Source: Flavimaricola marinus
Lineage (GTDB): Bacteria; Pseudomonadota; Alphaproteobacteria; Rhodobacterales; Rhodobacteraceae
Length of the DNA stretch: 64,000 nt
Reading direction: 5' to 3'
Assembly (NCBI RefSeq): GCF_900184895.1
Contig: NZ_FXZK01000001.1
Location: forward strand, 62,001 to 126,000
In this document: piece by piece, positions 19,198 through 62,259 of the stretch
Layout of the letters: each line of letters starts with the position of its first letter
Numbering within the stretch: the first letter of the stretch is position 1
Made by a program: the position numbers and the translations under genes
Notes under the pieces: generated by a model
Databases searched by the model: none
Seen by the model: only the letters and a program-made list of their open reading frames with translations
Told to the model about the DNA's origin: nothing

Positions 19198-21504
19198 CTA
19201 GCGCTCGGTCAGTTTCAACTCGATCCGCCGGTTCTGGGCCCGGGCCTCGTCTGTGTCGGCGGTGTTGATCGGCTGGTATTCTCCGAAACCATTGGCCGCC
19301 AGACGCTCCGGCGCGATCCCCTCGTTCTGGATCATGTATTGCACCACCGACAGAGCCCGCGCCTGACTGAGTTCCCAGTTGTCGGCAAAGGCCCCGTTCC
19401 CGCTGAGCGGCACGTTGTCGGTGTGCCCGTCGACCCGGATGATCCAATCGATCCCCTCCGGGATATTGGCGGCGATCTGGCGCAACAGCCGGGCGACATT
19501 GCCGATGTCGGCCTGACCCTCCGCAGACAGTTCCGCCGCTCCGGGCTCGAACAGCACTTCGGAGGAGAACACGAACCGATCGCCTTCGATCCGGATCCCC
19601 TCCATATCGTTCACGATGTCGCGCAGGTTTCCGAAGAATTCGGAGCGATACCGCTCGAGATCCTGCGCCTCGGCCTCCAGCCGCGCCCGTTCGAGCTCCA
19701 GTTGCCGCCGCAGTTGCTCCTCGACAGCGAGCCGCCGTTGGGTCTCTGTGGCGACGCGCGCCAGCGCGGTGTTCAACTCGGTGCCGAGCGACTGGATTTC
19801 GACGTCGGCGTCTGCGTCGGCCTCGTTCGCCAGATTGAGCAGCGATTGCAGCCGCTGCACATCGCCGCGCAGAGCCGCCACCTGTTCGTTGAGCACGGCC
19901 ACCTCGCGCTGGCTGGCCGCCGACAGGGCCTCCTCTTCGCTCAGCGCCTGGTTCGCGGCGCCCAGCAGCACGGCCTGCCGTTCCGCCTCGGTCATCTGAC
20001 TTTCCAACGCTTCTTGGGCCGCCAGCGTTTCGGCCAGAGCCTGTGCCAGCCGCGCCTCGAGTTCGGCACGGTCGGTTTCCGTTTCGGACCGACTTTGAGA
20101 CAGCGAGGCAACCTCCGCCTCGAGCGATTCCTGCAACAGGAGCGCCACCCGAAGCTGGTCTTCCATCGTCGCGGCTTGCGCCTGTGCGCTGCTCAGTTCC
20201 GTCTCTGTCGCGGCAAGCGCCGCGGCCCGCGCCTGTTCGGCCAGCAGAGCTTGCGCCAGTTGTTCCTCGATTTCGGCCTGACTCAGGGCGCTTTCGGCCA
20301 GTGCCGCCTCGAGCGCGGCCTGTGCGGTCGCCAGATCGGCCTCTGTGCCCGATTGCGCAGCGAGAGCGGCGGCCAATCGCGTCGACAGCGTCTCCCGTTC
20401 CACTTCCACCGCATCCAGCCGGGCCTGTGCCGCGTCGAGTTCCGCCTGTGTGCTGTCCTGCAAGCTGAGCGCCGCAAGCAGCCGCGCGTCGAGGTCGGAG
20501 CCCTCGTTCAGCGCCCGTTGCAGGTTGTTCTCCGCGGCCTGCCGCGCCAGCAGTGCTTCGGCCAGTCGCATATCGAGATCGTCCCGCGCCGCGTTGGCCG
20601 CGGCCAGCAGCGTCAGCGTGTTTTCCGCCGCGCGCCGCTGTTCTTCGAGCGCCAATGTCATGGCGGTCAGCTCCGCGTCGGCATCCTCGAGCCGCGCCCG
20701 AAGCGCCTCGGCGGCGGCGGCTTCGGCCAGACGCGCCGCTTCGGCCTCGCTGAGCGCCTCGGCCGTCTCGTTGGCTGTCGCTGTGAGACTTGCGATCTGC
20801 TCTTGGTCGGCGGCCGCCGCGCTTTGCAGATCCGCGATCAGCGCGTCGAGCGCGTCGGCACGCGCGGCGGCGAGCCTTGCGGCCTCGGCCTCGGCGCTGA
20901 TTTCGTCGCGGGCCTGCGCCAGCGCCAGATTGAGCGCCTCGGCCTCGCTGATCGCGACGGCCTGCGCCGCCTCCAGTGCTTCGATCGTCGCCCTCGCCTC
21001 GGTCCCCTGCGCCTCCAGATCGGCGATCTGGCTCGCGTCCGCTTCGGTCTGCGCCTCGAGGCTGGCGATCGTGGCCTCCGCCGCGCGCCGTTGCGCCAAG
21101 AGCCCTGCAACCTGCGCCTCGAAGCCCGTGATCTGGCTTTGCGCTTCGGAAAGCGCGGCGGCGGTTTGATCCCGTTCCAGCGTGAGCGAGGCGATCAGCG
21201 CGGACTGCTGTTCGGCAACGACGGCGGCGTCGGTCAGGTCGCGGTTCAGGTCGGTGACCTGCGTCACCAGCTCCGATGTCCGGGTCTGTTCCAACCCCAG
21301 CGCCCGCGCGAGGTTCGCCACCTCGTTCGACAGGTCGTCAAGCTCGGATTCCTGCCCGGAGATCGTATCCCGCAGCACGAATTGCACCACGGTGAAGATC
21401 GACAGCACGAACATCAGCACCAGCAAGAGCCCGGTCATCGCATCGACGAAGCCCGGCCAGATCGAGGCTTGGAAGCGGTTGCTGGAGCGTCGTTGCAGGG
21501 CCAT
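19198..21504 (-). CDS. MotB/ZorB-like OmpA-domain protein with giant coiled coil
   Basis: A 768-residue protein. A short cytoplasmic N-terminus leads into one transmembrane helix (about 16-43, WPGFVDAMTGLLLVLMF) with Asp21 placed like the ion-binding Asp of MotB/ZorB/TolR proteins. A continuous Ala/Glu/Leu/Gln-rich coiled coil follows (about 50-620). The C-terminus is an OmpA-type peptidoglycan-binding domain (about 640-768) with the VDGHTDNVPL and SQARALSVVQYM motifs and the final NRRIELKLTER. This architecture fits the peptidoglycan-anchored half of an ion-driven stator spanning the periplasm. The partner channel gene ends 3 bases upstream. It is too long for flagellar MotB and lacks flagellar neighbours; its role (envelope, cell division or transport) is unknown. 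Confidence 0.85.
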   Translation of the reverse strand: MALQRRSSNRFQASIWPGFVDAMTGLLLVLMFVLSIFTVVQFVLRDTISGQESELDDLSNEVANLARALGLEQTRTSELVTQVTDLNRDLTDAAVVAEQQSALIASLTLERDQTAAALSEAQSQITGFEAQVAGLLAQRRAAEATIASLEAQTEADASQIADLEAQGTEARATIEALEAAQAVAISEAEALNLALAQARDEISAEAEAARLAAARADALDALIADLQSAAAADQEQIASLTATANETAEALSEAEAARLAEAAAAEALRARLEDADAELTAMTLALEEQRRAAENTLTLLAAANAARDDLDMRLAEALLARQAAENNLQRALNEGSDLDARLLAALSLQDSTQAELDAAQARLDAVEVERETLSTRLAAALAAQSGTEADLATAQAALEAALAESALSQAEIEEQLAQALLAEQARAAALAATETELSSAQAQAATMEDQLRVALLLQESLEAEVASLSQSRSETETDRAELEARLAQALAETLAAQEALESQMTEAERQAVLLGAANQALSEEEALSAASQREVAVLNEQVAALRGDVQRLQSLLNLANEADADADVEIQSLGTELNTALARVATETQRRLAVEEQLRRQLELERARLEAEAQDLERYRSEFFGNLRDIVNDMEGIRIEGDRFVFSSEVLFEPGAAELSAEGQADIGNVARLLRQIAANIPEGIDWIIRVDGHTDNVPLSGNGAFADNWELSQARALSVVQYMIQNEGIAPERLAANGFGEYQPINTADTDEARAQNRRIELKLTER

Positions 21505-21507
21505 GGA

Positions 21508-22683
21508 TCAGCCCCCTGACGGCCCGCGTGGCGGCGTCGGACGCACCCCACGGATCGCCCGTGTCAGCGCCGAGATGTCGGTGCGCAGTTCGGCCATCGT
21601 CTCTTGCCGACCGGCGGCCAGTTCTTCGAGGATCCGCAGCATTTGCACGTCGATGGAGCGCAGCCGCATCCGGCTTTCGGGGTCCATCGACTCGCCGGTT
21701 TCGCCAAGCCGTTCGATCAGCTTTTCCTGCCCTTCGGCCACCCGCATCAGGGCTGCGGTGCTGTCGTTGGCCTCGATCCGTTCGGTCAGCCCGCCGATGG
21801 AGGTGGCCAGTTCGCCCAACCGCGCATCGACTTCGCTGCGCGCGATGTCCGATTGCGTGAACATCAGTTGCAGCGATTCCATCTGCTCGGCCAGATTGTC
21901 GATCACCGAGGCCATGACGCTGGCCTCCGAGCCGCCGCCGTCCTCGCCGGACGAGAAGCTGACCCGCGTGATCGTCGACATCCACTCCTCCAGCTCGCGG
22001 TAGAACCGGTTCTGACCGTGCCCGGCAAAGAGCTCCAATAGCCCCACCACCAGAGAGCCGGCGAGCCCCAGAAGCGACGAGGAGAACGCCGTGCCCATGC
22101 CGCCGAGCTGGCTTTCCAGCCCGGCCTGAAGCCGGGTGAACACTGCTGTCCCGCTCTCACCGGGGGCCGGGTTGAGCCCCTTGATCGTCTCGACCAGTGC
22201 CGGCACCGTCGTGGCCAGCCCGTAGAACGTGCCCAGAAGCCCGAGGAAAATCAGGACGTTGCCCAGATAGCGCGTGATTTCCCGATCCTCGTCGATCCGC
22301 TGCGCCACGGAATCGAGGATCGACCGCGACGACGAGGCCGACAGCTGCATCCGCGCCCCGCGTGACCGCAGCAGCGTGGCCAGAGGCGCCAAAAGCCCCG
22401 GTGCGATGGCGACATCCATCCCCGACCGGTCGGAGGCGAACCCTTCGATCCAGCCGACCGAATTGCCCAGTTGCACGACCTGCCGGAAACACGACAGCAC
22501 CCCGAGCACAAAGACCGCCAGGATCACGGTGTTCAGGTAGGGATTCGACCAGAAGATCGCGGCAATGGTCCCAAAGCCGAAATATCCCCCGACCGAGATC
22601 AACACGATCACCACCAGCATGGAGGTGAGTTGACGAACGGGCCGGGTGAACTGCGGATTTGCCTCGGTTGAACTGATGTCCAT
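21508..22683 (-). CDS. MotA/TolQ/ExbB-like proton-channel protein
   Basis: A 391-residue inner-membrane protein with hydrophobic segments at about 20-42, 46-62, 145-170 and 195-220. These flank a cytoplasmic region, and a long C-terminal cytoplasmic helical tail runs from about 230 to 391. The LIFLGLLGTFYGLATTVPAL and GMGTAFSSSLLGLAGSLVVGLLELF segments match the conserved pore helices of MotA/TolQ/ExbB. The tail is longer than in ExbB/TolQ and recalls ZorA-type proteins. Directly followed by the MotB-like gene, so the pair probably forms a stator complex. No ZorC/D, Ton or Tol partners are adjacent. Confidence 0.86.
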   Translation of the reverse strand: MDISSTEANPQFTRPVRQLTSMLVVIVLISVGGYFGFGTIAAIFWSNPYLNTVILAVFVLGVLSCFRQVVQLGNSVGWIEGFASDRSGMDVAIAPGLLAPLATLLRSRGARMQLSASSSRSILDSVAQRIDEDREITRYLGNVLIFLGLLGTFYGLATTVPALVETIKGLNPAPGESGTAVFTRLQAGLESQLGGMGTAFSSSLLGLAGSLVVGLLELFAGHGQNRFYRELEEWMSTITRVSFSSGEDGGGSEASVMASVIDNLAEQMESLQLMFTQSDIARSEVDARLGELATSIGGLTERIEANDSTAALMRVAEGQEKLIERLGETGESMDPESRMRLRSIDVQMLRILEELAAGRQETMAELRTDISALTRAIRGVRPTPPRGPSGG

Positions 22684-22752: not shown

Positions 22753-23301
22753 TTATGCCTTTGCGCCCGATCGCTCGGCGGTGAGCGCCCGGACCCGGCT
22801 CACCAGCCACGTCATCTCGGCATCCTTGATCCCCATCTGGGTCAGATGCTCGGCGGTGTTGTAGAGGTATTCGTCGTTAGGCCCCCGCCCGCCGACGGCC
22901 CGCGCGATCATTTGCGCCTGCGTTTCAAGGTCGAACTGGCAATATTGCCTGTGGTTCTGGTCGATCACGTAGGCCAGCGCGTCGATCCGCCGCCCGTCGT
23001 TCAGCTCCAGCGGGACGTGCCGTTCGACATAGGCCGAGGAGATCAGCTCTCGCGCCCTGAGATCGGCCAGCACCTGTTCGGCCTCTTCGTCGGCCACCCG
23101 GAACGCCACGCCTGTGCATTGCCCGCCCGTCACCGCATCAAGCGCCAGCACCAACCCCGGCTCTTCCTCGCTCCCCCGGTGGTGGATGGACAACATGCAG
23201 AAGCTGCGGTGATAGTCCCCCAGCCGTGCCGTCACCGCTTCGGCCGGGGTGAACCCCGGATTCCACAGCAGCGATCCGTATCCAAAGACCCAGAGTGTCA
23301 C
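22753..23301 (-). CDS. ChaC-like gamma-glutamylcyclotransferase
   Basis: Cleaves gamma-glutamyl peptides, in this family usually glutathione, to 5-oxoproline and Cys-Gly. The 182 residues begin VFGYGSLLWNPGF, which binds the gamma-glutamyl group. The RSFCMLSIHHRGSEEEPGLVL region supplies the Arg/Glu typical of ChaC, and the C-terminus has PNDEYLYNTAEHL. Cytoplasmic. 69 bases upstream of the stator pair on the same strand, so co-transcription is possible. Confidence 0.9.
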   Translation of the reverse strand: MTLWVFGYGSLLWNPGFTPAEAVTARLGDYHRSFCMLSIHHRGSEEEPGLVLALDAVTGGQCTGVAFRVADEEAEQVLADLRARELISSAYVERHVPLELNDGRRIDALAYVIDQNHRQYCQFDLETQAQMIARAVGGRGPNDEYLYNTAEHLTQMGIKDAEMTWLVSRVRALTAERSGAKA

Positions 23302-61464: not shown

Positions 61465-62259
61465 ATGCGCATTGTCGTCCTTTTCACGGTGTTGCTCCTT
61501 GCCGCTTGTTCGCGGCAGGCCCCGCCTTCAGAGCTTGCACAGGCCCGCGAGGTTGCGCCCGTTACCGTCTTTGACGCCAATTTCGGCGACGCCGATCCAT
61601 ATGACTGGACCGGCCGCAGACCAGAGTCCTATCCGGTTCACGGTATTGACCTGTCGCGGTGGCAATCGCAGGTCGATTGGCCGACCGCCCGCCGCAACGG
61701 CGTCAACTTTGCCTTTATCAAGGCAACCGAAGGCGGCGATATCCTCGATCCGGCATTCGAGCGGCACCGTCAGTCGGCAGCGGCCGCCGGCGTCCCACAT
61801 GCGGCCTATCATTTCTTCTACTGGTGCACTCCGGCGGAGGTGCAGGCCCGTTGGTTCATTGCAAATGTGCCACGCGAACCGGGGCATTTGCCGCCGATCC
61901 TCGACGTGGAGTGGAACGCTCATTCCCCGACGTGCACCCGTCGCCCGCCCCCCTCGACGGTGCGGGCCGAGATGCGGACGTTTCTCGATATCCTCGGTCG
62001 CCACTATGGCCAGCGTCCGGTGATCTATACCACCGTAAACTTCTGGAAAGACAACGATCTGAACGACTTGCAGGGCGAGGAATTCTGGCTGCGCTCCACC
62101 GCGGGTCACCCGTCGGAAACCTATGGCCCGGCACGCTGGAGCTTTTGGCAATACTCCGGCACGGGGCTGGTTCCCGGTATCGCGGGCCGCGTCGATCTGA
62201 ACGTCTTTGCCGGGTCCGAGGCATCATGGGCCGCGTGGCTTGCGCAGCGGCGACAATAG
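61465..62259 (+). CDS. GH25 lysozyme-like lipoprotein
   Basis: A 264-residue protein with a lipobox (VVLFTVLLLAAC, Cys15) followed by a GH25 catalytic domain: VHGIDLSRWQSQVDWPTARR, NFAFIKATEGGDILDP, AAYHFFYW and the acidic LPPILDVEWNAHSP (catalytic Asp/Glu), then WSFWQYSGTGLVPGI. GH25 enzymes cut the MurNAc-GlcNAc bond of peptidoglycan. A tethered lipoprotein form suggests wall remodelling or defence at the cell surface. Start ATG 61465 has no strong ribosome-binding site; an earlier start near 61408 is possible. Confidence 0.88.
   Translation: MRIVVLFTVLLLAACSRQAPPSELAQAREVAPVTVFDANFGDADPYDWTGRRPESYPVHGIDLSRWQSQVDWPTARRNGVNFAFIKATEGGDILDPAFERHRQSAAAAGVPHAAYHFFYWCTPAEVQARWFIANVPREPGHLPPILDVEWNAHSPTCTRRPPPSTVRAEMRTFLDILGRHYGQRPVIYTTVNFWKDNDLNDLQGEEFWLRSTAGHPSETYGPARWSFWQYSGTGLVPGIAGRVDLNVFAGSEASWAAWLAQRRQ

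Follow-up and report, generated by a model that had tools for sequence, protein, structure and literature searches.

What kind of machine is encoded by two adjoining genes of Flavimaricola marinus (Alphaproteobacteria, Rhodobacterales), one resembling the pore of an ion-driven stator and the other an axle with a coil far longer than the periplasm is wide? The genes lie in the window analysed here, the whole stretch of 64,000 nucleotides from position 62,001 to 126,000 of contig NZ_FXZK01000001.1 (assembly GCF_900184895.1). A preliminary description made from the sequence had placed at positions 19198-22683 of the window an orphan stator-like pair. Both open reading frames (ORFs), here called A and B, were confirmed there, on the minus strand and separated by 3 nucleotides. 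We consider it probable, with a fair margin of doubt, that A and B form a motor of A5B2 composition whose rod is anchored in the wall, and that this motor has a housekeeping role in the cell envelope.

By hydropathy, B has one transmembrane (TM) stretch (residues 13-50), which includes Asp21 within the motif WPGFVDA. When this motif was searched for with the position of the Asp left free, the residue was Asp in all 146 relatives of B that carried the motif; 4 of the 150 proteins did not carry it. The TM helix of B therefore has a conserved Asp, as in the 5:2 motor class, and the earlier assignment of Asp21 to a MotB/ZorB-like helix passed this residue check. At the other end of the protein the predicted OmpA peptidoglycan-binding domain was recovered by Pfam (E 3.5e-19), and the nearest solved sequence was a putative MotB (3khn, E 4.2e-18). 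Two motifs of the peptidoglycan-binding domain of the B proteins, GH(T/S)D and N(R/K)RI, were kept in 149 and 147 of 150 sequences, respectively. B is a full member of NF006542 (PRK09039.1-1), with 762 bits against a cut-off of 388, and the cut-off of NF006543 was exceeded as well. The NF006542 entry bears the name 'peptidoglycan -binding protein' without an assigned function and, as displayed, mentions neither a partner A, a motor, the gene C described below nor a quantised rod.

Variants of B were also encountered. Two paralogues from two genera of one family (L142 and L154) look secreted and consist of a signal-like N-terminus, a coil and the same peptidoglycan-binding domain; they showed no TM Asp motif, and the sequence retrieved around them contained no match to A. 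At another locus (L037) the B coil and peptidoglycan-binding domain were situated near the end of a 948-amino-acid ORF, the middle of which presumably consists of Sel1-type repeats.

A contains four TM stretches as judged by hydropathy and a helical tail of about 150 residues, in agreement with the MotA/TolQ/ExbB pore helices and cytoplasmic tail first noticed in the sequence. Its own match to Pfam MotA_ExbB, with 15.8 bits (E 0.012), fell short of the cut-off of 22.9. All 23 aligned A relatives matched this model at E up to 1, the best at 1e-6, and the curated cut-off was exceeded by the B-adjoining A genes of three genomes (G025, G030 and G037). We regard this as the decisive support for the motor class of A, because the cut-off is exceeded in relatives and all 23 match at least weakly. 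A single-chain AlphaFold2 model of A, built from the 23 sequences, had a mean predicted local distance difference test (pLDDT) score of 73, and its membrane helices were mostly above 80 per ten-residue block, except at about residues 81-120. Foldseek placed ExbB, ZorA and TolQ at the top for this model (E 0.009 or worse). In VIA-align, rows 1-25 were all TolQ, ExbB, ZorA or MotA chains with Z from 11.7 to 9.5 (TolQ/ExbB 10-11.7, ZorA about 10, MotA 9.5). A has the TM fold of the MotA/TolQ/ExbB/ZorA motor class; the profile matches and this fold class support the stator-like character ascribed to the pair.

In a phylogenetic tree, A formed a single clade (support 98/97), and A together with the ZorA-type rows was split from TolQ/ExbB/MotA by a branch of 99/95. 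The MotA rows made up a group of their own (100/99), and the TolQ/ExbB rows occupied their own side of a branch (95/94). The tool issued a long-branch warning for this tree, from which the long-branched row L003 was left out, and only one (L198) of its eleven ZorA-type rows was above its family cut-off. L003 (G000:C16:1128298-1128522) is an ExbB/MotA-like protein of about 250 amino acids encoded in the same genome as the window; it has a very long branch and falls outside both the TolQ and the MotA groups. That genome also encodes a separate TolQ-like protein (L001).

The most distinctive part of B is its coil. No proline occurs between residues 17 and 654 of the window protein, the coil spans about 575 residues, and its hydrophobic periodicity peaked at 3.50 with a power of 3.08, compared with a maximum of 1.93 in 200 shuffles, in agreement with the unusually long continuous coiled coil that had been described. 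AlphaFold predicted a nearly continuous helix for B as a single chain, partner not included. Rod length was defined as the distance from the TM Asp to SEFF, a conserved motif at the base of the peptidoglycan-binding domain, and could be determined in 136 of 150 B proteins; nine were excluded by a strict TM/DGHTD rule and five had no SEFF anchor. The rods ranged from 138 to 985 residues. The distance from SEFF to DGHTD was 71 residues in 135 B proteins and 72 in one; therefore, the length variation sits in the coil.

The 96 distinct rod lengths were distributed over classes 0 to 6 modulo 7 as 5, 43, 5, 0, 17, 19 and 7 (chi-square p 5.8e-18), while moduli 3-6 and 8-12 gave no signal (p 0.2 or above). 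Six of the nine proteins excluded by the TM/DGHTD rule were measured separately, of which five belonged to class 1 and one to class 5. Flagellar MotB served as a control: 26 of 30 loci were measured, with a GHTD-like motif instead of SEFF as end point, and the 22 distinct lengths showed no heptad quantisation (p 0.36). As a power check for this control, B subsamples of 22 lengths gave p <0.05 in 95% of draws. Shared ancestry was reduced in a nearest-pair test with disjoint pairs, in which pairs more than 99.5% identical were skipped. Of the 68 pairs obtained, 55 differed in length; 22 of these differences were multiples of 7 (7.9 expected, p 2.7e-6), 22 further ones were 3 or 4 modulo 7 (15.7 expected) and 11 were other values (31.4 expected). 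The secondary rod-length classes are those of a stutter or a stammer. A similar pattern is described, in passages of PMC9587094, for the register-keeping coiled-coil linkers of phytochrome cyclases, 54% of which are multiples of 7 and 38% at -4.

Rod lengths were converted to nanometres with the known rise of an alpha-helix, 0.1485 nm per residue. Rods outside Rhodobacterales measured 20-72 nm (median 34, 57 proteins), those of Rhodobacterales 41-146 nm (median 68, 79 proteins) and that of the window about 89 nm, compared with a periplasm thickness of some 20-30 nm. Because the lengths are heptad-quantised and the heptad phase is mostly coherent, the rod is probably an in-register coiled coil without interruption; the same two observations leave without support the earlier statement that a coil of this length must fold back or be segmented. 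An unbroken rod would exceed the membrane-to-wall distance and therefore could not stand upright; it may slant, follow the wall or bend. This result raises the puzzle of how a thin periplasm accommodates stiff rods that reach about 146 nm.

The pair is not a peculiarity of one genome but is class-wide. When 289 alphaproteobacterial genomes were searched, NF006542 matched in 249 at E up to 1e-3, generic OmpA proteins included, and the specific B domain was present in 182 at E <=1e-30, a threshold set in this analysis. With a family-specific B profile, 92 of 398 genomes of the phylum scored at least 150 bits, the next score being 108. Twenty-six of the 27 same-family genomes listed carried a match to this profile; in the other one, G444, none was found at E 1e-20. 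Six of the 92 high-scoring genomes are from outside the class, and all six carry the A-B pair.

The locus around the pair is conserved as well. Within Rhodobacterales, for which the best 80 of at least 582 relatives by score were taken, A adjoined B at 80 of 80 loci, and ChaC, DUF2125 and ClpA genes were present at 78, 67 and 66, respectively, these counts being lowered by the incompleteness of some loci. At 40 loci of other families, A was beside B in 37, SuhB was found in 32, a third gene, C, in 30 and elongation factor P (efp) in 28, the usual order being efp-suhB-C-A-B. The identities of A and SuhB were correlated (r 0.46, n=32, reached in 0 of 999 permutations), as vertical descent predicts, although linked genes could also travel together. 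The A-B pair is a core, class-wide trait with a conserved locus and is not island-like. New in this analysis are the class-wide conservation, the efp-suhB-C-A-B locus and the evidence for a continuous in-register rod. The description of the pair as an orphan proved correct in that no known system adjoins it, but not for the 30 of 40 loci outside Rhodobacterales at which C accompanies it.

The six pairs from outside the class (L238-L243) were possibly transferred. The three of them included in the tree nest among alphaproteobacterial A rows, and no C, efp or suhB match was detected at E 1e-5 within the 12-kb stretches around the six. Their rods match the pattern given above: five belong to class 1 and the remaining one to class 5. 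Three of these pairs share a genus.

In most of the loci read outside Rhodobacterales, gene C (L120-L159, e.g. L138:3792-4727) is flanked by suhB and A. In most of the 30 proteins, its product combines a signal-like N-terminus, assigned by eye and with a simple rule, with a proline-rich linker and a domain of OmpA type, the latter recognised by Pfam for L138 and by OmpA-like NCBIfam models in 19 of 20. The Asp of the HTD motif has a role in holding peptidoglycan. The H(T/S)D motif was absent from the last 110 residues in all 30 C proteins, and since B keeps GH(T/S)D nearly throughout, C may lack the usual mode of holding peptidoglycan. No C gene was found in the genome of the window, where the C profile gave weak matches to its OmpA part only (best 28.3 bits). 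A link between the lack of C and long rods was considered and rejected, as C-less rods were not longer, by eye, in the loci outside Rhodobacterales.

In the motor that we propose, two B helices would be enclosed by a ring of five A subunits, which would be turned relative to the B helices by ions that cross at Asp21 of B. Outside the membrane the two B chains would continue as a single, uninterrupted two-stranded coiled coil with paired peptidoglycan-binding domains at its end, and the coil could act as a stiff, orientation-keeping shaft or tether because both of its ends are held in fixed register. The rod, 20-146 nm long and about 89 nm here, would lie aslant or along the wall and tether the motor to a wall site some distance away. 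On the cytoplasmic side, the likely output of the motor is the helical tail of A, and outside Rhodobacterales the secreted, OmpA-like C is likely to be its periplasmic partner. The role would be cell-envelope housekeeping, plausibly at poles and division sites.

This cellular role is hinted at by work on Komagataeibacter hansenii, a non-flagellated alphaproteobacterium. In passages of PMC6570709 and PMC6315621, an adjacent MotA/MotB pair of 348 and 321 amino acids is described as MotAB homologues, with a four-TM MotA and an OmpA-ended MotB, a layout like that of A and B. When motA/motB were overexpressed, the cells were longer and formed chains and the cellulose net was looser, and green fluorescent protein fusions were located at the poles (PMC6570709; PMC6315621). 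These genes are probable orthologues of A and B, as judged by their size and layout and by BLAST hits across the class that are quoted in that work. The main text of PMC6570709 does not contain the word 'coiled', and the passages of the two papers make no mention of gene C. Among open-licence papers, no other work on the A-B pair was found. The main text of a 2025 stator phylogeny (PMC12505986) contains neither 'coiled' nor 'alphaproteobacteria', and in the parts of the papers on S. meliloti Rgs proteins (PMC7327166) and DalA partners (PMC10470522) nothing could be matched to A, B or C.

The same genes could also be read as a wall-state-sensing ion channel, in which tension or damage felt by the peptidoglycan-binding domain travels down the register-keeping coil and gates A, and the tail signals inward without sustained rotation. 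This is the main rival of the motor, and we rate it as unlikely. Signalling coiled-coil linkers with length classes 0 and -4 modulo 7 do exist (passages of PMC9587094), the opening of a channel by peptidoglycan binding is a suggestion made by the authors of a Zorya study (passages of PMC11890865), and the partly conserved tail of A could serve as signal output. However, the membrane fold of A is the same as in proven motors, subject to the helical-bundle caveat of VIA-align given below, and rods of up to 985 residues seem excessive for a sensor.

A second alternative keeps the motor and takes the coil as a folded-back or kinked bundle that fills the periplasm as a passive spacer. The low-confidence breaks in the AlphaFold2 model of B recur about every 130 residues, close to the width of the periplasm, rod length is highly variable, and the later part of the window coil shows a drift of the heptad phase. 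The heptad-quantised lengths oppose such folding, as do the absence of proline from 93 of 96 coils and the length histograms, in which, by eye, odd multiples of one span are not enriched. We consider this arrangement improbable, more so than the sensing channel.

Several observations weigh against the A5B2 motor with a continuous rod. Window A itself exceeded no curated family cut-off in Pfam or NCBIfam, a PDB sequence search with it returned nothing, and in a search of the PDB with the A profile the best 60 of 62 chains were other helical proteins with no motor among them. Foldseek of the A model gave no match with E <0.001. In VIA-align, unrelated helical proteins came close behind the motors (AhlC at Z 9.5, a designed bundle at 9.4); according to a warning of the tool, Z values below about 13 may be commonplace for helical bundles. 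The structural evidence consists of single-chain predictions. As for the rod, 61 of 136 were outside the main class modulo 7 (44 of them in classes 4 and 5), including that of the window (class 5); 3 of 96 coils contain proline; the heptad phase of the window coil is steady to about residue 400 and then drifts slowly; and the low-confidence breaks in the predicted B helix are at residues 167-168, 299-305 and 431-439. The specific B domain was not detected in 107 of the 289 class genomes, some of which are incomplete. In the passages cited, the likeness of the K. hansenii genes is one of size and layout, and all the data come from overexpression, under which fusions can form artefactual foci at the poles.

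The features of the locus are collected in Table 1. The window neighbours scanned by Pfam were ChaC, DUF2125, extensin-like, prephenate dehydrogenase, aminotransferase, glyoxalase II and ClpA genes. No flagellar, Tol, Ton or Zorya genes were among them, bearing out the preliminary description on this point.

Table 1. Features of the A-B locus, in positions of the window
Feature	Position	Strand	Basis
A, MotA/TolQ/ExbB/ZorA-type pore subunit, 391 amino acids	21508..22683	-	ORF; Pfam; AlphaFold2 fold like 5:2 motors
A residues 16-244, TM bundle and cytoplasmic loop TM2-TM3	21952..22638	-	AlphaFold2 helices; VIA-align Z up to 11.7 (TolQ)
A residues 147-153, LGLLGTF, TM3 motif	22225..22245	-	Invariant in 23 aligned sequences; resembles TolQ/ExbB rows
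A residues 252-379, helical cytoplasmic tail	21547..21930	-	Low-pLDDT helices; C-terminal helix 335-379 partly conserved
B, MotB-like axle, coiled-coil and peptidoglycan-binding protein, 768 amino acids	19198..21504	-	ORF; NF006542/PRK09039.1-1, 762 bits
B Asp21, TM helix, candidate ion-binding residue	21442..21444	-	Asp in 146/146 motif-bearing relatives
B residues 46-620, proline-free heptad coiled coil, interpreted as unbroken	19645..21369	-	Periodicity, length classes, AlphaFold2
B residues 651-759, OmpA/MotB-type peptidoglycan-binding domain	19228..19554	-	Pfam OmpA E 3.5e-19; putative MotB 3khn, E 4.2e-18
ChaC-like gene	22753..23301	-	Upstream of A, gap of 69 nucleotides; kept neighbour in Rhodobacterales

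Could the pair be a Zorya-type anti-phage motor? PADLOC, which states no cut-offs, gave ZorA1 as the best lead for window A (E 2.1e-10, 38.0 bits) and scored B at 74.2 bits for ZorB3, where the strongest match covered residues 594-764 in the OmpA end. NCBIfam ZorA models matched weakly in 19 and 17 of the 23 A relatives, and A groups with the ZorA-type rows. In contrast, A reached 19.7 bits against the ZorA_4 cut-off of 500, and no ZorB model was among the 25 of 39 families listed for B. The ten neighbouring ORFs contained no ZorC, ZorD, ZorE or convincing defence gene; only ClpA matched AAA models. The conserved synteny and broad presence of the pair also differ from the occurrence of ZorA homologues, which were found in 11 of 289 genomes (E 1e-10), one of them above the cut-off. 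A defence motor at this locus is thus very improbable; membership of Zorya was rejected, as no cut-off was reached and no ZorC/D/E lay in the ten ORFs, and Zorya was kept as the nearest kin. A spare flagellar stator, a MotAB paralogue, is scarcely credible despite the MotA-like four-TM layout of A and the OmpA domain of B, since the MotB plug model (PF13677) matched one place in the genome, on contig C42 and not at the A-B locus, B presence was independent of MotB (47 genomes with both, 25 with B only, 23 with MotB only and 18 with neither, p 0.42; 113 of 115 genomes, taken as G000-G114, with G002 and G101 omitted as ambiguous), and the MotA rows stand across the 99/95 branch from A. A phage origin was rejected: in PHROGs, A had no match at E 0.01, and the last 200 residues of B matched only families without a known function.

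Compared with MotA-MotB and PomA-PomB, the A5B2 motor would share the four-TM A and a B with a TM Asp and an OmpA domain. It differs from MotAB by the lack of a plug match and of a flagellar context and by its heptad-quantised rod, and A was outside the MotA clade. The likeness to TolQ-TolR-Pal and ExbB-ExbD lies in the fold of A, the TM3 motif and the envelope setting, and the secreted, OmpA-like C invites comparison with Pal. Unlike the Tol and Exb systems, B has a coil and its own peptidoglycan-binding domain, and A forms a separate clade outside TolQ/ExbB; no TolA, TolB or Pal was found among the annotated neighbours of the window and of one relative (L138), so that the pair was not assigned to Tol-Pal. 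As a tentative extension, on balance doubtful, A and B might be a third widespread alphaproteobacterial envelope motor beside Tol and Ton. It would be a rotary A5B2 machine with a stiff shaft of 20-146 nm, the length of which evolves mainly by whole helical-register steps. The shaft would lie along the wall, and the machine would turn or pull wall sites far off along the cell surface instead of acting directly across the periplasm; C would be its ancestral partner in the periplasm.

The closest likeness is to ZorA-ZorB of Zorya (8qyd, 8vvn; passages of PMC11890865), which shares with the pair the nearest clade to A, the TM Asp and peptidoglycan-binding domain of B and a helical tail of A. In contrast to Zorya, the A-B pair has no Zorya effector gene and occupies a conserved chromosomal place, and its long element is the coil of B (138-985 residues), the tail of A being short by comparison. 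The suggestion of a housekeeping or uncharacterised cousin of ZorAB is in line with the grouping of A with ZorA rows and with the conserved, non-island locus. An unnamed 'peptidoglycan -binding protein' thereby becomes half of a class-wide probable ion motor and, if this is true, a household motor stands next to ZorAB, with a bearing on the origin of the Zorya motor.

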